Positions 1 through 21,439 of a stretch of 22,333 nucleotides of DNA are shown one piece after another. Source of the stretch: a virus; the IMG/VR virus record IMGVR_UViG_3300034103_000738, positions 1-22,333 of that record; one strand, 5' to 3'. Position numbers and translations under genes: made by a program. The notes under the pieces were generated by a model, which saw nothing but the letters and a program-made list of their open reading frames with translations, was not told the origin of the DNA and searched no databases. Positions within the stretch are counted from its first letter, which is position 1. Each line of letters begins with the position of its first letter.

Positions 1-1874
1 ACATCTTCCAGAACGACAACAACGGCTTCCTGATCTGCTACTCGGTCTTCAAGGACGCCCTGCGCGGCGCGCTCGGCGTCGCCAAGTACGTTTGGGAGGA
101 GAGGGTCGAGGTCAAGACCGAGTACTTTACCGGGCTCGATGACTCGGCGCTGACGGTGCTGCTCTCGGAGCCGGATGTCGTGGGGAGCGCCATCTCGGCG
201 ATGGACGACCCGTCGTACCAACCGCCGGTGGACCCGATGACGGGCGCGCCGGTGGTGGACCCGATGACGGGCCTGCCGCCGCCGGCGCCGCAGATCTACT
301 CGGTCGAGCTCAAGCGCGAGACCAAGAACGGCCGGGTGCGCATCGAGGCGATCCCGCCCGAGGAGTTCCTGATCGACCGACGCGCGCGCTCCGTCGAGGA
401 CGCGACCCTGGTCGCGCACCGGCGGATGATGCGCGTCTCTGACCTCGTGGCGCTCGGCTACGACAAGGATGAGGTCGAGGCGCAGATGGGCGTCTACGAG
501 CTCGACACGAACGACGAGTACCTGGCGCGCAACCCCTACGCCCAGTCCTATGGCCCGGGCGGCACGCAAGACGACAAGCGCGTGCTCTACTGCGAGGCCT
601 ACATCCGGGTCGACTACGACAAGGACGGCATCTCGGAGCTGCGCAAGATTTGCACCATCGGCCCGAGCTACAAGATGGTGATGAACGAGCCGTGCTCGCA
701 CTCGCCGTTCGCGCTCTTCTGCCCGGACCCGGAGCCGCACGCGCTCATCGGGCTTTCTATGTTCGACATGACCGCCGACCTGCAGAAGATTAAGTCGGCG
801 ATCATGCGCAACATGCTCGACTCTCTGTCGCTCGCCATCCACCCGCGGGTGGGCGTGGTCGAGGGACAGGTCAACATGGACGACGTGCTTAACACCGAGG
901 TGGGCGGCGTCATCCGTATGCGTCAGGCCGGCGCGGTCCAGCCGTTCGCCGTGCCGTTCGTCGGCCAGGCCGCCTTCCCGATGCTTGGGTATCTCGATGA
1001 GGTACGCGAGACCCGCACCGGCATGAGCAAGGCCTCGATGGGCCTTGACGCCGACGCACTACAGAGCACCACCCGCGCGGCGGTAGCCGCGACGGTAAGC
1101 GCAGCGCAGCAGCACCTTGAGCTGATCGCCCGGATCTTCTCCGAAACCGGGATGCGCGCCCTGTTCAAGGGTATTCTCAAGCTCGTCGTAGAAAATCAGG
1201 ACCGAGCGCGGGTGGTGCGCCTCCGCAACCAATGGGTGCCGATCGACCCACGGTCGTGGGATGCGAACATGGATGTCGAGATTGATGTCGCCCTCGGCGG
1301 CGGCACCGAGGAGCAGCAGGTCTCTGTGCTGACCTCCATCGCCCAGAAGCAGGAGCAGATCCTGCAGACGATGGGGCCGCAGAACCAGCTGGTGACGCCG
1401 CAGCAGTACCGGAACACCCTGGTGCGGCTGGTGCAGGCCTCCGGCTACAAGAACGCGGACGAGTTTTTCTCGAACCCGTCGATGATGCCGCCGCAGCCGC
1501 CCCCGCCGCCCCCGCCGCCTGACCCGGCGATGATCTTGGCCGAGGTGGAGCGCCAGAAGATTATGGCGGACATCCAGAACAAGCAGGCGGAGCTGGAGCT
1601 CAAGCGCCAGCAGATGCTGCTCGAGGATGACCGCGCGCGCGACAAGCAAGAGGCGGAGATGATGCTGCGCGCCTATGAGATCCAGCTGAAGAGCGGCACG
1701 GCGGTGGATGTCGAGAGCATCAGGGCGATGATGGCCGAGCCGCGCGTGGCGAGCCCGAGCGTGCAGCGCCCGGTGATCCCTGAGATTCTGCCGCCGGAGC
1801 CGCTGCCGCCTATGATGCAGCCGCCTGTTTCTGTTGAGTCGGCGGCCATGCCGCCGCAGTTCCCTGGTGTTTAA
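1..1874 (+). CDS. Portal protein, P22-type (5' end missing)
   Basis: The reading frame is already open at base 3 and runs to the TAA at 1872-1874, so the gene begins upstream of the window. An in-frame GTG at 156 is internal, because the codons before it (FQNDNNGFLICYSVF, then KTEYFTGLDD) read like the conserved portal wing/stem region. Portal proteins form the dodecameric ring at one capsid vertex through which DNA is packaged and ejected. Supporting motifs are IPPEEFLIDRRA, the stretch MFDMTADLQKIKSAIMRN, and RTGMSKASMGLDADALQSTT, which is typical of P22-like podoviral portals. After about base 1480 comes a proline run (11 prolines within 13 residues, 1486-1530), then a Lys/Glu/Gln-rich helical stretch and a Pro/Met-rich tail; these could form a C-terminal barrel-like extension. 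Family assignment is strong; the subfamily is inferred. Confidence 0.9.
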   Translation, partial: IFQNDNNGFLICYSVFKDALRGALGVAKYVWEERVEVKTEYFTGLDDSALTVLLSEPDVVGSAISAMDDPSYQPPVDPMTGAPVVDPMTGLPPPAPQIYSVELKRETKNGRVRIEAIPPEEFLIDRRARSVEDATLVAHRRMMRVSDLVALGYDKDEVEAQMGVYELDTNDEYLARNPYAQSYGPGGTQDDKRVLYCEAYIRVDYDKDGISELRKICTIGPSYKMVMNEPCSHSPFALFCPDPEPHALIGLSMFDMTADLQKIKSAIMRNMLDSLSLAIHPRVGVVEGQVNMDDVLNTEVGGVIRMRQAGAVQPFAVPFVGQAAFPMLGYLDEVRETRTGMSKASMGLDADALQSTTRAAVAATVSAAQQHLELIARIFSETGMRALFKGILKLVVENQDRARVVRLRNQWVPIDPRSWDANMDVEIDVALGGGTEEQQVSVLTSIAQKQEQILQTMGPQNQLVTPQQYRNTLVRLVQASGYKNADEFFSNPSMMPPQPPPPPPPPDPAMILAEVERQKIMADIQNKQAELELKRQQMLLEDDRARDKQEAEMMLRAYEIQLKSGTAVDVESIRAMMAEPRVASPSVQRPVIPEILPPEPLPPMMQPPVSVESAAMPPQFPGV

Positions 1875-1891: not shown

Positions 1892-2197
1892 ATGACGATC
1901 AAAGCTGAAGACCTTAACGGTCAATACTTGGACGCGGTGGGGCTGGGCGCCTCGCAGGCCGTCGCCTACACGGGCACGGCGGCGGCCTCCAACGCATTCA
2001 ACGCGCAAACCAGAGTGGTGCGAGTGGTGGCGACCACCGACTGTTTCATCTCCACCGGCGCGAACCCGACCGCCACGACGAGCAGCGCGTACCTGCCTGC
2101 GGGCACGGTTGAGTATATCCGCGTCAACCCGCAGGATAAGATCTCTGCGGTGCGGCGCAGCGCCGACGGCACGCTGTACGTGACGGAGACAAACTAA
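1892..2197 (+). CDS. Small beta-rich virion protein (possible decoration protein)
   Basis: A 101-aa protein starting at ATG 1892, with a GAGGG-type ribosome site about 7-10 bases upstream. It is rich in Thr, Ala and Val with alternating hydrophobic residues, and has the pattern 'CFISTGANPTATTSSAYLPAGTVEYIRVNPQDKISAVR...GTLYVTE'. Small phage proteins of this shape (a single beta-sandwich with an 'I/V-x-TG-x-NP...LPAG...I-x-V-x-P-G/Q-D' layout) are often found next to head genes and are usually annotated as unknown structural proteins. It has no signal peptide, Cys pair or membrane segment. It overlaps the following lectin-like gene by one base (TAATG), so the two are probably co-translated. 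A decoration or fibre-base role is an inference from position and composition. Confidence 0.65.
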   Translation: MTIKAEDLNGQYLDAVGLGASQAVAYTGTAAASNAFNAQTRVVRVVATTDCFISTGANPTATTSSAYLPAGTVEYIRVNPQDKISAVRRSADGTLYVTETN

Positions 2198-3498
2198 TGC
2201 TCAACAGCCAAGGATCGCTCAACAGGCTAGGCGCTAACCTGCGCAACCCTTACGGGCCGTCTGCGGCTTCGCTTAATCTCGACTTCACGGCGTCCAACAC
2301 GCTTGATCCCCGCATCACCTTCACCCGCGCAACCACGGCGACGTTCTTCAACTCGTCTGGCGTACTGTCTACGGCGGCATCTGGCGCGGCTCGTTTCGAC
2401 TACAACCCCACGACGCTTGCACCGCAGGGCTTGCTCATTGAGGAGCAGCGGACGAATTCCATCCGCAACAACACGATGGTGGGTGCAGTGGCGGGTACGC
2501 CGGGGACTAACCCGACAAATTGGGATATTACTGTTAGCCCTTCTGGCATCACAACAGAAATTGTTGGAACAGGCGTAGAAGATGGAATCACATATATAGA
2601 TGTGCGGTATTTCGGCACGGGAAGCGGCAGTGCATCACCGCAAATTCGCCCGGAGACAACTACTGGTATTGTTGCTGCGGCAGGGCAAACTTGGACTGCA
2701 AGTTATTATTTAAGAATTGTGGGTGGGTCTACTACGGGTTTATCAGCGTTTTCTCAAATTTGGCAAGAACGAGACGCCGCAGGGGTCTCATTAAATACGG
2801 TTGTTGTTACCATTTCTGCCCCAACCACAGCAGCATTAAAAACGCAACGCAGCATTTTAACGCGAACATTGACAGACGCTGGCACGGCTAGGCTGACAAA
2901 CCGAATTCAATTTACTTGTGCAAACGGAGTGGCAGTAGACATCACCCTCCGCATCGGCCTGCCCCAACTAGAACTTGGCGCATTCGCCACGAGCGTTATC
3001 CCCACGACGACCACCGCCCTCACGCGCAACGCAGATGCAGCGAGCATGACGGGGACTGATTTCTCGTCGTGGTACAACCAGACGGAGGGGACGTTTGTTG
3101 TAAATTTTGCAATTCCAAACGCAACGGATTCGCGCAGTCAATTAACAGCAGGTGATGGAACCGCAAATGAACGGATAATTATTACTAATAGTTCGTCTTT
3201 GGCGGGAACGGCTTTTCGCGTAGTGGATGGCGGCTCTGACCAATGCGATATAAGCAGGTCGCAATCATTTGCAAATAACGCAACAGTTAAAGTTGCGGGT
3301 GCATACAAAGTCAATGACTTTGCAATTTCTCAGAATGGCGGCTCTGTGGGAACAGACACAAGCGGGACGTTACCGACCGTCACAACCTTGTTTATTGGGA
3401 CAAATGGAGTGGCTCAATATTCAAATTCTTACATAAGCCGCATCGCCTACTACCCCGTCCGCCTCGCCAACACCACCTTACAGGCACTCACGGCATGA
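2197..3498 (+). CDS. Lectin-like fibre/adhesion protein (concanavalin-like fold)
   Basis: A 433-aa protein starting at ATG 2197. The N-terminal third has the pattern 'LNLDFTAS...LDPRITFTRATTATFFNSSG' followed by 'RFDYNPTTLAPQGLLIEEQRTN', a recurrent signature of phage and prophage proteins with carbohydrate-binding modules. Around residue 257 there is QLELGAFATSVIPTTTTALTR, after which NADAASMTGTDFSSWYNQTEGTFVVNF opens a LamG/concanavalin-A-like domain to the C terminus. Such proteins are thought to bind glycans on the host surface or in mucus, displayed on the virion. Codon use is mosaic: the conserved motif blocks are GC-rich, but about 2510-2930 and 3095-3440 are much more AT-rich than the flanking genes, which suggests exchanged segments. 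The gene overlaps its downstream neighbour by four bases (ATGA). Fold-level call is good; the ligand is unknown. Confidence 0.7.
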   Translation: MLNSQGSLNRLGANLRNPYGPSAASLNLDFTASNTLDPRITFTRATTATFFNSSGVLSTAASGAARFDYNPTTLAPQGLLIEEQRTNSIRNNTMVGAVAGTPGTNPTNWDITVSPSGITTEIVGTGVEDGITYIDVRYFGTGSGSASPQIRPETTTGIVAAAGQTWTASYYLRIVGGSTTGLSAFSQIWQERDAAGVSLNTVVVTISAPTTAALKTQRSILTRTLTDAGTARLTNRIQFTCANGVAVDITLRIGLPQLELGAFATSVIPTTTTALTRNADAASMTGTDFSSWYNQTEGTFVVNFAIPNATDSRSQLTAGDGTANERIIITNSSSLAGTAFRVVDGGSDQCDISRSQSFANNATVKVAGAYKVNDFAISQNGGSVGTDTSGTLPTVTTLFIGTNGVAQYSNSYISRIAYYPVRLANTTLQALTA

Positions 3499-4336: not shown

Positions 4337-5119
4337 ATGAGCAACGCATTCATGGGGCAGAGACAGCAGGCCTCGCCGATGGGCTACGGCGGCTACAGCG
4401 GCGGGTACTCGCCCCCGCAGAGGATCGAGCCGTCCTATGGCGGCTACGACCCGTTCGGCGGCGGCGGCTATGGCGGCGGAATGGGTGGCTATGGCGGCGG
4501 CATGGGCGGCTTCAACCCGTTCGGCGGTGGCGGCTACGGCACGCAATTCGGCGGCTATGACATGGGCGGCGGAGGCGGCTTTGGCGGCTACGGCGGCGGG
4601 ATGCGCGCGCCGGCCTACGAGCCGACCATCAACGACGCATTCTCCCGCTACTTCTCGCAGCAGTACTATGGCGGTCCTGCCTTCGACCCGTTCGCGGCGA
4701 CCTCCTTTTTTGGCGGCGGGTATGGCGGCGGATTCGGCGGTGGTGGTCGCCGTGGCGGCGGGATGGGCGGCCGGATGCGCCGCCGGCGGCAGATGTTCGA
4801 GGACCTCTTCCAGCCGGAGAATACGCCGCTGTCGCAGCCGCAGCCGATGCCTGCACCGGTCGGCTACGCGACCGGCCCCGGCGGCGGCGCGTACCAGCCG
4901 GGTGGCGGCGGGCAGCGCATCGAGATGGGGCCGGTCACGCCGCAGCCTGAGATGCAGATTCGCCGTGATGCGCCAGATGTGATGCCGCAGCCGTACATGG
5001 GTATGGGTGGGTTTGATTCCATCATGCCGGTGCAGGTGCAGGACACGCCGGTGTATGCTCCGGCTGGGCCGTCATACTTCGACGACCGATTCTTTAACCG
5101 AGGAGGCATGTACAGATGA
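4337..5119 (+). CDS. Gly/Tyr-rich low-complexity protein with RG-rich patch
   Basis: A 260-aa protein starting at ATG 4337, one base after the previous stop. Residues about 17-95 are almost entirely Gly, Tyr, Met, Phe and Pro in units such as GGYGGGMGG and DPFGGGGYGG. Residues about 96-125 form a more ordered aromatic stretch (INDAFSRYFSQQYYGGPAFD). A second Gly block leads into an arginine-rich patch at about 137-152 (GRRGGGMGG then RMRRRRQ). The C-terminal 100 residues are Pro/Gln-rich. No enzymatic motif, signal peptide or membrane segment is present. The composition resembles flexible adhesive or phase-separating GY/RGG domains, but no homologous family is recognised. It overlaps the next gene by ATGA. 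The function is unknown; its place in the head-gene region suggests a virion or assembly role. Confidence 0.6.
   Translation: MSNAFMGQRQQASPMGYGGYSGGYSPPQRIEPSYGGYDPFGGGGYGGGMGGYGGGMGGFNPFGGGGYGTQFGGYDMGGGGGFGGYGGGMRAPAYEPTINDAFSRYFSQQYYGGPAFDPFAATSFFGGGYGGGFGGGGRRGGGMGGRMRRRRQMFEDLFQPENTPLSQPQPMPAPVGYATGPGGGAYQPGGGGQRIEMGPVTPQPEMQIRRDAPDVMPQPYMGMGGFDSIMPVQVQDTPVYAPAGPSYFDDRFFNRGGMYR
4437..4780 (+). repeat. Imperfect GGC/GGN-TAT simple repeat inside coding sequence
   Basis: Two blocks (about 4437-4605 and 4703-4775) are built from short GGCGGC and TATGGCGGC units encoding Gly-Gly-Tyr-Gly. The units are imperfect but always in frame. Such triplet-type repeats can expand or contract by slippage without breaking the frame. 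Confidence 0.6.
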
Positions 5120-5265
5120 AAACCGGACTCTACGCAAACATCAACGCCAAGCGCGCGCGGATCGCCGCCGGCAGCGGCGAGAAGATGCGCAAGCCTGGCG
5201 CCAAGGGCGCGCCGACCGCCGCGGCCTTCAAGGCCTCGAAGAAGACGGCGAAGAAGCGCGGGTGA
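5116..5265 (+). CDS. Very small basic protein (49 aa)
   Basis: The frame starts at ATG 5116, overlapping the previous stop (ATGA), and ends at TGA 5263-5265. The sequence begins MKTGLYANINAKRARIAAG and ends in an Ala/Lys tail (AAFKASKKTAKKRG) like a histone H1 or nucleoid-protein tail. There is roughly one Lys/Arg per three residues and a single acidic residue. Short proteins beginning 'K-x-G-L-Y-A-N-I' with the segment 'GEKMRKPGAKGAPT' recur in podoviral head regions as unknown proteins. The strong positive charge suggests binding to DNA or to acidic scaffold/portal surfaces, which is inference. The next gene starts inside its stop codon (GTGA), indicating coupled translation. Confidence 0.7.
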   Translation: MKTGLYANINAKRARIAAGSGEKMRKPGAKGAPTAAAFKASKKTAKKRG

Positions 5266-5588
5266 AGACGCCGGCGTGGCAACGCGCCGCCGGGAAAAAC
5301 CCGCGCGGCGGATTGAACGCCAAGGGGCGCGCGTCGTACAAGGCGCAGACCGGCGGCACGCTGAAGGCGCCCGTCAAGGGAGCGCCAGATTCGCCGCAGG
5401 AGCTGCGCCGCAAGGGTTCATTCTTGACGCGAATGGGCTCCATGCCCGGGCTTCTGGTGGACGAGCAGGGCGACAAGACCCGCCTCAAGCTGAGCCTCGA
5501 GGCGTGGGGGCACCGTGGAGACAAGGCCAGCGCCGTCGCCAAGGGGCGGCAGCTTTTAAAACGATACCGAGGGACGAAGGGTGGCTGA
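5262..5588 (+). CDS. Basic phage protein, DUF6321-like
   Basis: The gene starts at GTG 5262, overlapping the upstream stop as GTGA, and encodes 108 aa; the frame is open far upstream inside the Gly-rich gene but that part is not used. The opening residues TPAWQRAAGKNPRGGLNAKG followed by RASYKAQTGG, and a central 'RRKGSFLTRMGSMPG', match what I recall of the small phage family DUF6321. The second half 'DKTRLKLSLEAWGH' is also typical. The protein is strongly basic and Gly/Lys-rich at its start. Neighbours are another tiny basic protein and the HhH-GPD-like gene, whose GTG start lies within its last codons. The family has no established function; a virion-associated nucleic-acid-binding role would be a guess. 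Confidence 0.7.
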   Translation: MKTPAWQRAAGKNPRGGLNAKGRASYKAQTGGTLKAPVKGAPDSPQELRRKGSFLTRMGSMPGLLVDEQGDKTRLKLSLEAWGHRGDKASAVAKGRQLLKRYRGTKGG

Positions 5589-7026
5589 ACGAAAGGCATG
5601 GTGGGAGATCCTGCGCGACCAGTTTGCGTCGCGCGGGCTGCTTGACCCAGAGTCGGAGCGGCTGCAAGAGGCCGCGCAGGCGGCCCCTGCCGTGCAGCGC
5701 CAAGCGCGCGGGCTGCTGTCTCTCGACCCGCAGGCCGAGAGCGACACGGCGCTCGAGATGGGCCTCGGCTCGCTCCCCGGCGTCGGCCAGGCGATGGCGC
5801 TGCGCGATCTGGAGCGCGCGCGCCGTGACAGAGACCCCGTTGCGGGGGCCCTTGCCGCGAGCAACTTCATCCCGTTTGGAAGCATCCTTTCTCGTATGCG
5901 GCGAGGCGGAGACGACGGGCAGGTGGCAATGGCCGCCGACGGAAGCTCGTTTCCGACGGAAATGCAGCCCCCGAAGGATGAGCAATACTTCAACCTTGAG
6001 GGGTTGACCACGCAGCCATCTAGAAAGGTCGAGATTCCGAGGTATGAGCCTCCGCGCGGCGCCCCCGGGTATATGCAGCGGCTGGCAAAAAATCAAAAGG
6101 CCTATGACCAGATTTTAAACTGGGCGCGCCGAGGCATGACCGAAGAGGGCCTCGGGTGGTACAACACGGACGCACTCAGGGATGAGTTTGTCAAAGAATT
6201 TGGCGAAGATGTCGGCCAGAAAAACTACGAGAAGTACATAGACCTTGTTGCGGCCACCAGCGCCGGCGCAAAGACCCCGGCAAACGCAAAGATCGCCTCT
6301 TATTACTACCAGCAAGCGGTAAGGGGCGAGCCCGCCGTCAAGCCGCCGAAGGGCTCCGGCTATGGGCACAAGGCCCAGAACCTGCACTTCAAGAACGCCG
6401 CAGAAATACTCGCCGGCGGCCAGCTTGACCCGATAAAAAACCCCAAGAGATTCACCTTCGGCGAAAACTTGAAGGGGAACTGGGACTATGCGACGGTGGA
6501 CAAGCACAACGTCAGGGCGTTTGCTATCGCATCCAAGGACCCGGAGTTCATAAACAGCAGGCTGGCCGACCCAAAGGGCACCCCGAAGCCTTCGTGGTGG
6601 AACGAAAAAAAGCACGGCGCGTGGGATGCTCAATCTTTCAACCCAAGGGAGTTTGTACAGACCAACAAGGTGAAGTGGGAGACAATCCCGCCGACCTGGT
6701 TCAAGGAAGCGCCGAGCAAAACAGACTACAAGGCATTCGAGGAGCTGAACAAAAGACTCGCGAAAGACCTTGGGGTATCGCCGGCGGCCGCCCAGGCTGC
6801 ACTCTGGCTCGGCGCCGGAGAGGTCACCGGGCTCGGGTCTCCGCCTATTGCCTTCATGAAGGTCCTCGAGGAAAGACTCGCCGCCACCGCAAAAAAGCGC
6901 GGAATCACGAGAGAGAAGGCGCTGAAGGACTTCATCCAAGGAAAGGCGCCGCTCGCGAAAAACAAGCAGCAGCAGGTCCAAGATGGGCTGCTGTCACAAC
7001 AAGATCAGGGGAGCATGTATGCCTAG
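5581..7026 (+). CDS. Phage protein with HhH-GPD DNA-glycosylase-like motifs
   Basis: A 481-aa protein starting at GTG 5581, overlapping the previous gene by eight bases. Residues 60-105 are Gly/Ala-rich and hydrophobic (GLGSLPGVGQAMALRDLERA then ASNFIPFGSIL), as in phage internal virion proteins. Residues about 160-320 look like a helical globular domain: YIDLVAATSAGAKTPANAKIA, then G260-Y-G-H-K264-A-Q-N, then a 'FGENLKGNWDYATVD307KHNVR' stretch. The pair GxGxKxxN...VDxHxxR recalls the helix-hairpin-helix and catalytic Lys/Asp region of endonuclease III-like DNA glycosylases, with a longer insertion between. A third block, PAAAQAALWLGAGEVTG (residues 401-417), follows. Related phage proteins of unknown function have, to my recollection, the same three blocks. 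Codons after about 5940 include many AGA/AGG, unlike the flanking genes. Enzymatic activity is an inference. Confidence 0.6.
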   Translation: MAERKAWWEILRDQFASRGLLDPESERLQEAAQAAPAVQRQARGLLSLDPQAESDTALEMGLGSLPGVGQAMALRDLERARRDRDPVAGALAASNFIPFGSILSRMRRGGDDGQVAMAADGSSFPTEMQPPKDEQYFNLEGLTTQPSRKVEIPRYEPPRGAPGYMQRLAKNQKAYDQILNWARRGMTEEGLGWYNTDALRDEFVKEFGEDVGQKNYEKYIDLVAATSAGAKTPANAKIASYYYQQAVRGEPAVKPPKGSGYGHKAQNLHFKNAAEILAGGQLDPIKNPKRFTFGENLKGNWDYATVDKHNVRAFAIASKDPEFINSRLADPKGTPKPSWWNEKKHGAWDAQSFNPREFVQTNKVKWETIPPTWFKEAPSKTDYKAFEELNKRLAKDLGVSPAAAQAALWLGAGEVTGLGSPPIAFMKVLEERLAATAKKRGITREKALKDFIQGKAPLAKNKQQQVQDGLLSQQDQGSMYA

Positions 7027-7198
7027 CAAGTCCGCCAAACAAGCTCGCCTCATGGCAGCCGCCGCGCACTCCAAGGAGTTTGCCAAGAAGGTGGGCGTGC
7101 CGATGAAGGTCGCCAAGGAGTTCAACAAGGCCGACAAGGGCGGCAAGCTCTTGAAGCGCGCCATGAAGAACCGCCCCAAGAGCGGGCTTCTGGCTTGA
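7019..7198 (+). CDS. Small basic conserved phage protein (59 aa)
   Basis: The start is ATG 7019, eight bases inside the end of the preceding gene; the in-frame codons further upstream are not needed. The sequence opens MPSKSAKQARLMAAAAHSKE and continues with 'FAKKVGVPMKVAKEFNKADKGGKLL', a pattern that recurs in small podoviral proteins near head genes. It is Lys-rich and predicted helical with no acidic cluster. It ends in a TTGA overlap with the next gene. The function is unknown; charge and context fit a nucleic-acid or virion-binding helper. Confidence 0.75.
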   Translation: MPSKSAKQARLMAAAAHSKEFAKKVGVPMKVAKEFNKADKGGKLLKRAMKNRPKSGLLA

Positions 7199-7474: not shown

Positions 7475-8443
7475 ATGAGCACTACCGGCACGGGTACACC
7501 CCCGGGAAACGTACAGTCCACGCAAGATGTCTTCGAGCAGATGCTCGCCGCCGACGAAGGCGAAAACGAGCAGCCCGAAACGGAAGGCGTGGTGGAAGAT
7601 GAGCCCGAGTTAGCGGCAAGCGAGTCCGCCGACGAGGGCGAGCAGACCGAAGGCGAGGAGGATGCCGAAGAGGCGCCCCAGCCGGGCCAGACATTCCGCG
7701 TCAGGGTTGACGGGGAAGAAGTCGATGTCCCGCTGGATGAGCTGCTGAAGGGCTACTCACGCACCGCGGATTACACGCGCAAGACGCAGGCGATCGCCGA
7801 GGCCCGGAAACAGGCACAGCAAGAGTCGGCCCTGGCGCGGGAAGAGCGGCAACGGTATGCGCAGACCTTGGCAGCCCTGGAGGGCACGCTCAAGTCGCTG
7901 CAACCGCCCGAGGTTGACTGGGAGAGGCTCTACGCAGAGAACCCGGTCGAGTGGGTGAGACAGCGCGAGCTAGTGCGGTCCAGGCAAGAGCAGGCGGCAT
8001 GGGTCCAGTCCCAGAAGCAGGCTCTGGTGGAGCAGCAGCAGGCGGAAGAGAGAGCGGAGGCCGAGAAGACCCTCGAGTCCGAACGAAGCAAGCTCTTGGA
8101 GGCCATGCCAGAGTGGCGCGACGCTGACAAGGCGCGCGCCGAGAAGGCGAAGATCGTCGAGTATGCCACCGAGCGACTCGGTTTCACGACCGAAGAGATC
8201 TCGGACATCTACGACGCCCGGGCCGTCCTGGCGCTGCGCAAGGCGATGATGTTCGACCAGCTGATGAGCAAGCGCGATCAGATGCGTCCGCAGATCATCC
8301 AGAAGGCCAAGCCCATGAGGGCCGGGGCCGCCTCCACGCCGCAGTCGTCCAAGGTCGTCGCATCGAAGGCCGCTTTTTCAAGACTCGCAAATAGTGGCAG
8401 CAAGCGCGACGCTGCTGCCGTGTTTGAACAATTCTTGGAGTAA
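7475..8443 (+). CDS. Capsid scaffolding protein
   Basis: A 322-aa protein starting at ATG 7475, ten bases after the previous stop and six bases before the major capsid gene. Residues 26-72 are extremely acidic (ENEQPETEGVVEDEPE, EGEEDAEEAPQ). Residues 73-112 contain TFRVRVDGEEVDVPLDELLKG and SRTADYTRKTQAIAEARK, a signature of phage scaffold proteins. Residues 110-215 form a Gln/Glu/Ala-rich coiled coil. The C terminus is basic with scattered Ser/Lys and ends 'AAAVFEQFLE', as expected for a capsid-binding tail. Scaffold proteins guide procapsid shell assembly and are then removed. Position immediately before the capsid gene is canonical. Confidence 0.88.
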   Translation: MSTTGTGTPPGNVQSTQDVFEQMLAADEGENEQPETEGVVEDEPELAASESADEGEQTEGEEDAEEAPQPGQTFRVRVDGEEVDVPLDELLKGYSRTADYTRKTQAIAEARKQAQQESALAREERQRYAQTLAALEGTLKSLQPPEVDWERLYAENPVEWVRQRELVRSRQEQAAWVQSQKQALVEQQQAEERAEAEKTLESERSKLLEAMPEWRDADKARAEKAKIVEYATERLGFTTEEISDIYDARAVLALRKAMMFDQLMSKRDQMRPQIIQKAKPMRAGAASTPQSSKVVASKAAFSRLANSGSKRDAAAVFEQFLE

Positions 8444-8449
8444 CTTCTA

Positions 8450-9430
8450 ATGTCCCAGACCAGCAATACGTTTGATACCTTCAGCGCAAAAGGTATCCGT
8501 GAGTCCCTCTCGAATGTGATCTACAACATCTCGCCGGAAGAGACGCCGTTCATGTCGAACATCGGCCGCGAGAACGTCAAGAACACGTTCTTCGAGTGGC
8601 AGACGGACGCCCTCGCTGCGGCCTCCACGACCAACGCGCAGATCGAAGGCGACGACGTGTCGTCCTACGATTCGACCACGGCGACGGTTCGTGTCGGCAA
8701 CTACACGCAGGTCAGCCGCAAGACGCTCATCCTCTCGGGCACGCTCGAGTCGGTGGACAAGGCTGGCCGTCGCTCGGAGCTGGCCTACCAGCTTGCCAAG
8801 CGCTCGGCCGAGCTCAAGCGCGACATGGAGAGCATCATGCTCACCAACCAGGCCGCCTCGGGTGGCTCGGCTGGCGTGAGCACGGCGCTCCGTAAGACGG
8901 GCTCGCTGTTGGCCTTCTTGAAGACCAACACGGACAAGGGCACGACCGGCGCCGATCCGTCGTACACCACGCAGCCGAACGCGACCCGCACGGACGCGAC
9001 CGATGCCAACCTGCGCACCTTCACGGAGTCCATCCTCAAGTCGGTCATCCAGAAGGTCTGGGCGTCCGGCGGCACCCCCAAGGTGCTGATGGTTGGCCCG
9101 GTCAACAAGCAGCGCGTGTCGGGCTTTGCCGGTATCGCGGAAATCCGCAAGGAAGTGGTCGGCAACCGTGCCGCTACCATCATCGGCGCGGCTGATGTCT
9201 ACGTTTCCGACTTCGGCAACGTGAACGTCGTCCCGAACCGCTTCCAGCGTGAGCGTGACGCCTTCGTGCTCGACCCCGAGTACGCGGCCGTTTCGTTCCT
9301 GCGCCCGTTCAGCACGGTGCAGCTCGCCAAGACCGGCGACGCCGAGAAGCGCATGATCCTCGTCGAGTGGGGCTTGAAGGTTAACACCGAGGCCGCGCAC
9401 GGCCTTGCGGCTGACCTCACCACGACCTGA
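8450..9430 (+). CDS. Major capsid protein, DUF5309/SU10 type
   Basis: A 326-aa protein starting at ATG 8450, with GGAG about nine bases upstream. The N terminus (FDTFSAKGIRESLSNVIYNI, then SPEETPFMSNIGRENVKN) and the pattern 'TFFEWQTDALAA...NAQIEGDD' are characteristic of the SU10/DUF5309 HK97-fold capsid family. Further matches are YTQVSRKTLILSGTLESVDK, the long helix ELAYQLAKRSAELKRDMESI, and near the C terminus KTGDAEKRMILVEWGLKVNT. It forms the capsid shell. The codons are the most strongly GC-biased of the window, consistent with high expression. A hairpin terminator follows 20 bases after the stop. Confidence 0.93.
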   Translation: MSQTSNTFDTFSAKGIRESLSNVIYNISPEETPFMSNIGRENVKNTFFEWQTDALAAASTTNAQIEGDDVSSYDSTTATVRVGNYTQVSRKTLILSGTLESVDKAGRRSELAYQLAKRSAELKRDMESIMLTNQAASGGSAGVSTALRKTGSLLAFLKTNTDKGTTGADPSYTTQPNATRTDATDANLRTFTESILKSVIQKVWASGGTPKVLMVGPVNKQRVSGFAGIAEIRKEVVGNRAATIIGAADVYVSDFGNVNVVPNRFQRERDAFVLDPEYAAVSFLRPFSTVQLAKTGDAEKRMILVEWGLKVNTEAAHGLAADLTTT

Positions 9431-9493: not shown

Positions 9494-9814
9494 ATGCAAT
9501 CTTCGGGCAAGAAGCTTTTCGACTTTGACCCGACGACAGGCACCACGAAGTGGTGGCACTACAACGCCGACTCTGACGAGGCGACCATCGAGACGGTCTT
9601 CGAGGTCGGCGACATCGTAGAGCAGAACAAGGCCCAGTATTCAGCGACCGACGAGAGGACGCGCTGGGGCGAGTGGAGCAAGGTGGCCTCGATACCGATG
9701 CCGTTGTTCTACCGGCTGAAGAGTCAGGGCATCGTTGACGACCCGAAGAAGATGAAGGCCTGGCTGAACGACGCAGACAACAGGTTTTTTAGAACACGAC
9801 CGGGGCGCGTATGA
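9494..9814 (+). CDS. Conserved phage head-region protein
   Basis: A 106-aa protein starting at ATG 9494 after a GAGG ribosome site. The pattern 'KKLFDFDPTTGTTKWWHYNADSDEATIETVFEV', a central segment with ERTRWGEWSKVASIPMPLFYRL, and the C terminus 'WLNDADNRFFRTRPGRV' are hallmarks of a widespread small phage protein located between the capsid and tail adaptor genes in podoviruses. Its role is not established. The stop overlaps the following glycosyltransferase start (ATGA). The family match is confident by pattern; the function is unknown. Confidence 0.75.
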   Translation: MQSSGKKLFDFDPTTGTTKWWHYNADSDEATIETVFEVGDIVEQNKAQYSATDERTRWGEWSKVASIPMPLFYRLKSQGIVDDPKKMKAWLNDADNRFFRTRPGRV

Positions 9815-10476
9815 GCCGCTCGGTCGCAATTTTAGTCCCAGCAAGGGACACGGTGATGACCTCGTTCGCCTATGACCTAGCGCGCGCGATGTCGTTCCAC
9901 ACCGCGACAACGGACGACCGTGTGCTGCTTTACACCTCGCACGGGACTCTGATCGCCTCTCAACGGATGGAGCTTGCGCGGCAGGCTCTGGAGGAGAAGG
10001 CGGACTATCTCCTCTGGCTTGACTCAGACATGCGGTTCCCGAGGGAGACCATCGGGCACCTCATGCTGCGCGACAAGCCGATCGTGGCCGCGAACTATGC
10101 GACGCGCCGTATGCCGGTCAAGCCGGTGGCGATGATGGACAACGACGGCGAGATCGGGCGGGTGTATACCGCGCCGGACTCTGAGGGGCTCCAGCCGGTG
10201 GATTACATCGGCATGGGGGTGATGATGGTGAAGCGCGAGGTGTTCGAGAAGGTGGAGGCGCCGTGGTTTGCGATCCCCTACAGCACCATCGGGAATCACT
10301 ACATCGGCGAGGACGTGTTTTTCTGCCGCAAGGCGCGCGAGGCGGGATACGAGGTACTCGTGGACCATGACCTCTCGCACCAGGTTAAGCACATCGGGAC
10401 CTTCGAGTATTCACACGAAGGCGCATGGGCGATGAAGGAACAGGTGGATGGCTCTAACATCATACAGCGCGCTTAG
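9811..10476 (+). CDS. GT-A type glycosyltransferase
   Basis: A 221-aa protein starting at ATG 9811, coupled to the previous gene. The first strand 'SRSVAILVPARDTVMTSFA', the metal-binding DxD motif at D71-S-D73 within DYLLWLDSDMRFP, the later segment IGMGVMMVKREVFE, and G166-E-D168 in YIGEDVFFCRKAREAGYEV fit a family 2-like GT-A fold with nucleotide-sugar and metal binding. A C-terminal His pair (SHQVKHIG) is also typical. The target is unknown: it may glycosylate a virion protein or a host surface component. It is soluble, with no membrane anchor, which favours a phage protein or DNA-linked target over lipid-linked O-antigen. It sits between head completion genes and overlaps the adaptor gene by 29 bases. 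Confidence 0.8.
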   Translation: MSRSVAILVPARDTVMTSFAYDLARAMSFHTATTDDRVLLYTSHGTLIASQRMELARQALEEKADYLLWLDSDMRFPRETIGHLMLRDKPIVAANYATRRMPVKPVAMMDNDGEIGRVYTAPDSEGLQPVDYIGMGVMMVKREVFEKVEAPWFAIPYSTIGNHYIGEDVFFCRKAREAGYEVLVDHDLSHQVKHIGTFEYSHEGAWAMKEQVDGSNIIQRA

Positions 10477-11080
10477 GGCGAGCATCGCCGACTGGCTGAA
10501 CCGGGACGACCTGACGTCGGTCATCCCGGACTTCATCTCGTTGGCCGAGGCGCAGCTCGAGCGCCGTCTGCCGACCCAGAAGATGGTCAAGCGCGTGGAT
10601 ATTACTATCAGCGCGCAGTTCACCACGCTCCCGTCTGACTTTCTGTCTGCAAAGTCGCTGGTGCTGACCTCGACGGCGCCCGTGCAGCAGCTCGTGTTCT
10701 TGACCGAGGACGAGCTTGACGCGAAGAAGACCGTCTACCGCACGACCGGCAAGCCGCAATATTTTGCGCTGATTGTAGACCAAGTCGAGACGCTGCCGCC
10801 GCCCGACACTAGCTACACCGCAGAGCTGACATATGTGGCAACTCTTGCCAAGCTCTCGGATTCCAACGCATCGAATTGGATCTTGGAGCGGCACCCTGAT
10901 GTGTACCTCTACGGGTCGCTGCTGCAGGCGGCCCCGTACCTGCGCGACGACGAGCGCGTCGCCCTCTGGACCCCGCTCTACGGGCAGGCCATCGAGGACA
11001 TGATCCTGCAGAACGAGCGCGCGGCATTCAGCCAGGGGCGCATTTCCATGACAGTCAAGCCGACGCGGGTGATCCCGTAG
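10448..11080 (+). CDS. Head-tail adaptor protein, SU10 type
   Basis: A 210-aa protein starting at ATG 10448, with AAGGA about ten bases upstream; the start lies 29 bases inside the glycosyltransferase gene. Opening 'TSYSALRASIADWLNRDDLTSVIPDFISLAEAQLERRL' is the diagnostic helix pair of the phage adaptor family that docks below the portal. Later 'TTLPSDFLSAKSLVL', 'YYV/TYVATLAKLSD' type strands and the helical 'HPDVYLYGSLLQAAPYL' are also typical of the family. The ring of adaptor subunits connects portal and nozzle and helps retain the packaged DNA. The match to known patterns is strong. Confidence 0.85.
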   Translation: MALTSYSALRASIADWLNRDDLTSVIPDFISLAEAQLERRLPTQKMVKRVDITISAQFTTLPSDFLSAKSLVLTSTAPVQQLVFLTEDELDAKKTVYRTTGKPQYFALIVDQVETLPPPDTSYTAELTYVATLAKLSDSNASNWILERHPDVYLYGSLLQAAPYLRDDERVALWTPLYGQAIEDMILQNERAAFSQGRISMTVKPTRVIP

Positions 11081-12468: not shown

Positions 12469-12641
12469 CAGTCCCGATCGAGCGCGTGGGCGATGTCGCA
12501 GCCGCCGGCAGCGTGACCGCCGCCAGCGTGTCGTGGATGACCCAGGCCAACGAGGTCATCTCGCTGGTCGCCGGGCTCATCGCGATCGCGGCCGGCTGCT
12601 TCGCGATCGCCGTACACTTCAAGAATTTGAGGAAGCCCTGA
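12465..12641 (+). CDS. Single-TM membrane protein (holin-like or lysis accessory)
   Basis: The probable start is GTG 12465 (GTGA overlap), giving 58 aa; the frame is open further upstream but that part lies within the preceding gene. The N-terminal 30 residues are polar. Residues about 31-51 (ISLVAGLIAIAAGCFAIAVHF) form one transmembrane helix, followed by a short basic tail KNLRKP. The endolysin starts one base inside its stop. Position and topology fit a class III-like holin or another membrane lysis factor. It is one of two small membrane proteins flanking the endolysin, and the sequence does not tell which is the true holin. Confidence 0.6.
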   Translation: MTVPIERVGDVAAAGSVTAASVSWMTQANEVISLVAGLIAIAAGCFAIAVHFKNLRKP

Positions 12642-13126
12642 TGGAGCCACGCTGGCTTATCGCCGCGCGCGCCTTCCTCGGCCTGCGGGAGATACCCGGC
12701 AAGGCGACCGCGCCCACCATCGCCCGCTGGCTGCGCGAGCTCAAGGCGTGGTGGTCGGATGATGAGACCCCGTGGTGCGGCACCTTCGTCGCCGCCGTGC
12801 TCGAGGGCGAGGGCATCAAGCGCCCAAAGCATTGGTACCGCGCCAAGGCGTGGCTCGACTGGGGCGATTATATCCGTGAGCCCGCCGTGGGCGCTGTCGT
12901 TATCCTTGATCGCAAGGGCGGCGGCCACGTCGGGTTCGTGGTCGGAAACGACGAAGCCGGGCGCCTGATGGTGCTCGGCGGGAACCAGGGCAACGCCGTG
13001 ACGGTGGCTCCCTTTGATCGCGCCCGGGTGCTCGGCTACCGCTGGCCCCCGGGCTTCACCGTGCTGGGCGGCCCTATGCCGCTCATCGCATCCAACGGGG
13101 CGAAGGCCTCGGCCAATGAAGCATAG
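12641..13126 (+). CDS. Endolysin, NlpC/P60-like (TIGR02594-type)
   Basis: A 161-aa protein starting at ATG 12641 (TGATG overlap). Motifs in order: REIPGKATAPTIARWL, then 'WWSDDETPWC46GTFVAAVL' with the likely catalytic Cys, then 'PAVGAVVILDRKGGGH96VGFVVG' with the catalytic His, and GGNQ with N115 as the probable third residue, followed by GYRWPP. This order is typical of the TIGR02594 phage cell-wall peptidase family, which cleaves peptidoglycan peptide bonds. There is no signal peptide, so export needs a holin. Neighbours on both sides are small membrane proteins, and spanins follow. Confidence 0.88.
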   Translation: MEPRWLIAARAFLGLREIPGKATAPTIARWLRELKAWWSDDETPWCGTFVAAVLEGEGIKRPKHWYRAKAWLDWGDYIREPAVGAVVILDRKGGGHVGFVVGNDEAGRLMVLGGNQGNAVTVAPFDRARVLGYRWPPGFTVLGGPMPLIASNGAKASANEA

Positions 13127-21017: not shown

Positions 21018-21073
21018 AGCGCCGCTCGCCAGGCGTGCAATGATGTCGCGTGGCACCCGAGGGATCGCAACCT

Positions 21074-21439
21074 ATGCCCCAGCAGCAGGCCTCCTCTCGT
21101 CGGAAGACTGACCGCACCAGCCGCCACGAGCGGCTGCAGATTCCGCGTCGGTTCCAGTTGCACGGCCACCAGATAGCCGTGCGCATCCTGCCGCGCACCC
21201 GCTGGCCGCACCCCAAAGACACCGTCGGGATGTACGACCCGACCTGTCACCGCATCGACCTGCGCGGCGATCAGGGCGACACCGAGCTGCAGCAGACCTT
21301 CTGCCACGAGTGGGCGCACGCGCTGCTCGACGAGATGAACCATCCCCTGTCACACGACGAGGTGTTCGTGGATAACCTGGCGAGCCTGCTCCATCAGTCC
21401 CTGACGACCTTCGACTCTGGAGCCAAGCCGTGCCGCTGA
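21074..21439 (+). CDS. Small HEXXH zinc metallopeptidase-like protein
   Basis: The chosen start is ATG 21074 with GAGGGA nine bases upstream, giving 121 aa; an in-frame GTG at 21050 would add eight residues. The N terminus is basic (SSRRKTDRTSRHERLQ). The middle holds 'GMYDPTCHRIDLRG'. The zinc motif is H78-E-W-A-H82, followed by L-L-D-E-M-N and a possible third ligand E96 in PLSHDEVFVDNLASLLHQSL. This layout is shared by small phage and prophage proteins related to the ImmA/IrrE or SprT-like minimal metallopeptidases. Its substrate is unknown; possible targets are a host or phage regulator. It overlaps the next gene by ten bases, so the two are probably co-expressed. Confidence 0.7.
   Translation: MPQQQASSRRKTDRTSRHERLQIPRRFQLHGHQIAVRILPRTRWPHPKDTVGMYDPTCHRIDLRGDQGDTELQQTFCHEWAHALLDEMNHPLSHDEVFVDNLASLLHQSLTTFDSGAKPCR

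Follow-up and report, generated by a model that had tools for sequence, protein, structure and literature searches.

The window, by which we mean the whole stretch of DNA analysed here, is a virus record with a length of 22,333 bases and contains, within its head-gene operon, a gene for a protein of 481 residues which profile annotation places between the SU10-type portal and scaffold genes. The original prediction for this gene, that of a protein with motifs of an HhH-GPD DNA glycosylase encoded among virion genes, was correct in its description of the locus. The open reading frame is present and carries G260-Y-G-H-K264-A-Q-N and V306-D307-K-H-N-V-R312 at these residues, the portal, scaffold, major capsid and adaptor genes lie in the same operon, and the proteins on either side are both small and rich in lysine and arginine, as had been claimed (Table 1).

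Table 1. Coordinates of the gene, its parts and its neighbours in the window
Feature	Position	Strand	Basis or remark
Portal protein, SU10 type (context)	156..1874	+	Profile matches
Small K/R-rich protein upstream, constant cassette flank	5097..5588	+	Start codon uncertain
Whole gene, presenter module and DUF7178 domain, 481 aa	5581..7026	+	Open reading frame, GTG start
N-terminal presenter module, residues 1-109, kept during C-terminal exchange	5581..5907	+	Sister contigs
Swap cassette, residues ~105 to stop	5880..7018	+	DNA identity breakpoints with sister contigs
DUF7178 domain, residues 144-467, predicted OGG2-like HhH-GPD fold	6010..6981	+	Pfam match, AlphaFold2, Foldseek
Motif GYGHKAQN of the original prediction, residues 260-267	6358..6381	+	K264 variable, non-catalytic
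K289, invariant, candidate catalytic lysine (compare Nth K120 and MjaOGG2 K129)	6445..6447	+	
D307-K-H309, candidate catalytic aspartate	6499..6507	+	D and H invariant
Y383 and E387, invariant	6727..6741	+	OGG2-like spacing
Q405 and W409, invariant	6793..6807	+	Positions of OGG2 Asp194 (OGG1 Gln315) and base-stacking Trp198
Small K/R-rich protein downstream, constant cassette flank	7019..7198	+	
Head scaffolding protein (context)	7475..8443	+	Profile matches
Major capsid protein, SU10 type (context)	8450..9430	+	Profile matches
Adaptor (head gene)	10448-11080		Profile matches

Some other genes of the window merit description in their own right. A glycosyltransferase-like gene (9811-10476; Pfam Glyco_transf_21, phrog_1574), placed between the capsid gene and the adaptor gene, shows 87-100% conservation among close relatives. 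Immediately 5' of the cassette region, a repetitive Gly/Tyr-rich protein (4337-5119) is of variable length and only 39-69% identity in phages whose neighbouring genes are >90% identical. The gene at 2197-3498 has a GC3 of 0.51 against 0.8-0.9 in its neighbours, close relatives being divergent at this point or partly without the gene, and it is probably another recently exchanged gene. The protein encoded at 12533-13126, with a PWCGTFV motif, is by eye likely to be of the endolysin type, while a small open reading frame near the end of the window (21050-21439) presents a HEWAH motif as in zinc metallopeptidase-like proteins.

Residues 180-314 of the 481-residue protein match the Pfam family DUF7178 (PF23802; E 6e-6) and phrog_3842 (E 7.5e-5), two entries without an assigned function. 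Compared alone with PF23802, residues 144-467 score 28.4 bits (E 1.8e-6), which is above the curated cut-off of 27, the full protein reaching 26.7 bits; the profile is matched at E <= 1 by 26 of the 33 relatives that were aligned. Relatives occur in Microcystis phage MJing1 and in the Roseobacter phages CRP-212, CRP-901 and CRP-3, and 270 loci were confirmed among viral contigs in a single scan guided by a profile, 80 of them being retained. Bacterial and archaeal species genomes, scanned with alignment A3 in a search that relies on short patterns, yielded 35 pattern stretches and no relative, and scans of NCBIfam and PADLOC gave no useful match. Literature searches found no paper on DUF7178 and none on Microcystis phage MJing1.

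The AlphaFold2 model of residues 144-467, obtained with the 33 relatives, is all-helical (pLDDT 94.2, pTM 0.90). Its only credible fold match in the PDB by Foldseek is the 8-oxoguanine glycosylase OGG2 from T. maritima (3n0u; probability 0.90, TM by target 0.59), for which the E value of 0.61 is not significant alone; a second chain of the same entry is matched with a probability of 0.72 and a TM by target of 0.52, and the remaining PDB matches in the list, for the most part large helical proteins, have TM <=0.25. In the model the helix of residues 145-155 (model numbering) opens with K289, and D307 is found just ahead of the next (165-175), a predicted placement of the kind expected of HhH-GPD enzymes. 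The window protein was not matched by the PF00730 profile at E <= 10, although the profile did find matches in all 14 control genomes, and PDB sequence searches with P0001 and with profile A1 returned no meaningful match. The proposed HhH-GPD likeness is supported in part: the fold search with the predicted structure points to OGG2, though with an insignificant E value, PF00730 is silent, and the lysine concerned is K289, which is not the one originally put forward.

This last point emerges from the conservation of residues in the alignment of 33 diverse DUF7178 members, which extends down to ~30% identity. Position 264 is a lysine in only 12 of the 33 relatives, the remainder having leucine (9), methionine (5), isoleucine (3), valine (3) or glutamine (1), which rules out K264 as the catalytic lysine. 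Without a conserved K264, 'GxGxK' does not qualify as the catalytic HhH block. The predicted Lys/Asp pair survives in its second member, D307 being invariant, but its partner is K289, which shows in 33/33 relatives the conservation that had been looked for at K264. Besides K289 and D307, the residues H309, Y383, E387, Q405, W409 and G411 are invariant in all 33. The distance of 18 residues from K289 to D307 is the same as that from K120 to D138 in E. coli Nth (sequence checked against 2abk), and the catalytic lysine and aspartate of OGG2, the former mutated to Gln in PDB 3knt, are also 18 apart. As K289 has the right spacing to D307 and K264 is variable, GYGHKAQN is assigned to the segment before the hairpin, where it probably corresponds to the non-catalytic GLYNSKAENI in Nth and GHRFYRKRAEYI in MjaOGG2. 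The hairpin signature itself (LPGVG or KGIG) is absent before the lysine, the window protein reading QLDPIKNPK with N-P-K conserved and no GxG. Absent too is the C-terminal lysine through whose carboxyl group OGG2 senses 8-oxoG, and the chain continues for 72 residues beyond W409.

Since the Foldseek E value is insignificant alone, an independent sequence comparison with OGG2 was made using a profile of 82 proteins, 79 of them from genome contigs and three from PDB records. DUF7178 and OGG2 share the spacings K-18-D-2-H and Y-4-E-18-D/Q-4-W. The top profile-profile block is the Y...E...W helix with a score of 30.0 (controls: maximum of 27.3 when the columns of the DUF7178 alignment were shuffled 200 times, and 12.1 for the reversed alignment). 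With invariant columns only, two colinear ungapped segments together hold seven identities (K, G, D and H, followed by Y, E and W), a constellation reached by 0/1000 shuffles with strict invariants (maximum 5) and by 2/1000 at the 90% threshold; OGG2 having been chosen from the fold search, this test is independent in its data and not in the choice of family. That the HhH-GPD likeness arises by chance from an unrelated helical fold would agree with the negative PF00730 and PDB sequence searches and with the weak Foldseek E value, but the rarity of the constellation among shuffles and the low TM of the other helical matches listed make this highly unlikely. The profile comparison with Nth/MutY recovers the VDxHxxR block only.

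In OGG2, Trp198 stacks on 8-oxoguanine and Asp194, four residues before it, has its structural counterpart in Gln315 of human OGG1 (PMC3397491); the position equivalent to Asp194 is occupied in DUF7178 by the invariant Q405. As aligned here, DUF7178 retains the lysine of OGG2 at K289, its aspartate at D307 and its base-stacking tryptophan at W409, and the C-terminal domain looks like a functional DNA base-removing enzyme, kin to the 8-oxoguanine glycosylases. On the alignment and the model, the domain is best described as OGG2-like and not as an OGG2, and 8-oxoguanine is not claimed as its substrate because the hairpin signature and the C-terminal sensor are absent.

The C-terminal part of the gene is a cassette that can be swapped, and DUF7178 is one of its alleles. 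The DNA identity of the window with sister contigs (~86-96%) ends at 5825-5906, that is at codons ~82-109, and returns (~85-97%) at 7015-7037, where the next gene has its start codon, and the N-terminal 105 residues are found in contigs with differing C-termini in which gene order and flanks are unchanged. About ten contigs (L001-L010) have the DUF7178 payload at this locus and seven (L015-L017 and L106-L109) an ADP-ribosyltransferase-like (ART-like) payload, with a third module in at least three contigs (L019, L020 and L272), a fourth in three (L021-L023) and a fifth in one (L110), which matches the C-terminal part of phrog_2579 (E 1.6e-20). ART-PolyVal is matched by 22/25 members of the ART module family (best E 1.8e-7), and DUF3990 or PARP by some of them as well, while the sister alleles at this locus fall below the curated cut-off. 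A PDB profile search with the ART-like sister payload was empty, and its predicted structure, with a pLDDT of 70.5, is not good enough to be searched for fold matches; the ART assignment therefore rests on the Pfam profile matches. The modules also occur with other N-termini: the DUF7178 module (84% identical) stands behind a different presenter in L011, L012 and L014, and the ART module behind several others. Two of the alternative payloads gave no database or family match and have almost no relatives beyond this locus; these family-less modules (L019:2130-2549 and L022:470-955) are candidate early effectors.

The codon-bias shift claimed for the later part of the gene is present as a drop in GC3, but is only modest, GC3 being 0.80 over residues 1-109 and 0.72-0.75 over residues 144-467, whereas in the sister allele L107 GC3 falls much more steeply, from 0.80 to 0.49. 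Such a drop at the junction, modest here and strong in sister alleles, is consistent with acquisition of the cassette. The exchange also bears on the proposal that the domain is a degenerate, non-catalytic HhH-GPD fold with a DNA-binding or structural role in the head. While the lost hairpin signature and the location within the head operon would fit such a role, the Lys, Asp and Trp positions stay invariant down to ~30% identity, which would be unexpected after catalytic loss, and a structural part of the head should not be replaceable by unrelated domains in near-identical phages; we consider this proposal quite improbable.

Further indications come from the fusion partners of the domain. 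DUF7178 is fused C-terminal to SLT transglycosylase domains in two contigs (L045 and L050), and is found behind a cell-wall hydrolase and a methyltransferase-like domain in CRP-3 and behind a GNAT-like domain in L040. In the viral library, the domain has structural neighbours in proteins annotated as ART-PolyVal, RelA/SpoT, SleB or 'large polyvalent'. For phage 'polyvalent' proteins with such features packaging and injection have been proposed (PMC5512222), and the trait of these injected effectors, an effector domain that sits among virion genes and is joined to other effector or lytic domains, is present here. We infer from the gene position and the fusion partners that the window protein is carried in the virion. 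The same enzyme might instead be made and used in the infected cell, for example in repair during phage replication, its position among head genes then reflecting late expression, and intracellular phage repair glycosylases such as T4 endonuclease V do exist (PMC7824862). An injected effector, however, better fits the position between portal and scaffold, the fusions to SLT and cell-wall hydrolase domains and the swaps with ART-like payloads, and purely intracellular use appears rather unlikely.

The explanation we favour, with a probability of roughly 0.55, is that of a virion-delivered 'polyvalent' effector in which a short presenter is joined to an exchangeable OGG2-like base-excision payload. 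The N-terminal ~105 residues would probably form a packaging and ejection module, and, as gene position and fusion partners suggest, the protein would be loaded in the procapsid and reach the cell alongside the DNA. If the chemistry follows that of OGG1 and OGG2, the domain on DNA would flip a base out and stack it against W409, Q405 lying at the edge of the base, D307 would cut the glycosidic bond, and K289 would serve either to position the base or to form a Schiff base able to nick the site. The likeliest target would be a purine, perhaps guanine in an oxidised or some other modified form, and the DNA acted on could be incoming phage DNA, for repair, or host DNA, for take-over or counter-defence. 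The exchange of the domain for other enzymes suggests that the virion is loaded with interchangeable enzymes which would act in the host when infection begins. We put forward more tentatively the wider scheme, in which payloads including an active base-excision enzyme, ADP-ribosyltransferases and other modules may be injected via a common short presenter, with glycosylase chemistry taking place on host or incoming DNA at genome entry; such a system would be the phage-borne counterpart of polymorphic toxins. DUF7178, a family without an assigned function that one scan confirmed at 270 viral loci, gains a testable enzymatic identity, and a locus pairing one short presenter with varied payloads provides a possible systematic route to early-infection effectors.

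The window domain matches PF23802 and phrog_3842, to which a glycosylase-like assignment is added here. With OGG2 (3n0u, TmaOGG2; 3fhf, MjaOGG2) DUF7178 has in common the predicted fold and the spacing of Lys, Asp, His, Tyr, Glu and Trp, but differs in the lack of the KGIG hairpin signature and of the C-terminal lysine sensor of 8-oxoG, in an insert of ~50 residues between Asp and Tyr, and in the Gln which replaces Asp194. The likeness to Nth and other HhH-GPD proteins (PF00730) lies in the Lys-to-Asp distance of 18 and the VDxHxxR block, while the PF00730 match (E <= 10), the LPGVG hairpin and the Fe-S cysteines are wanting. Polyvalent proteins (PMC5512222) resemble the locus in virion-gene context, modular effectors, ART payloads and fusions to lytic domains, whereas here a short presenter bears a single exchangeable payload, and the text on polyvalent proteins does not mention a glycosylase. 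While the polyvalent-effector concept and the DUF7178 family name are already known, both the glycosylase-like reading of the domain and the swap locus seem to be new with respect to the literature consulted. Brig1, a bacterial anti-phage DNA glycosylase (PMC11078745), and T4 endonuclease V are DNA glycosylases acting in phage-host conflict or phage DNA repair, neither of them described as the exchangeable C-terminal payload of a virion-region protein. Brig1 serves bacterial defence whereas the DUF7178 protein is phage-encoded. DNA glycosylases have recently come to light as weapons of bacteria against phages, and the present findings suggest that phages, too, may bring one into the cell.
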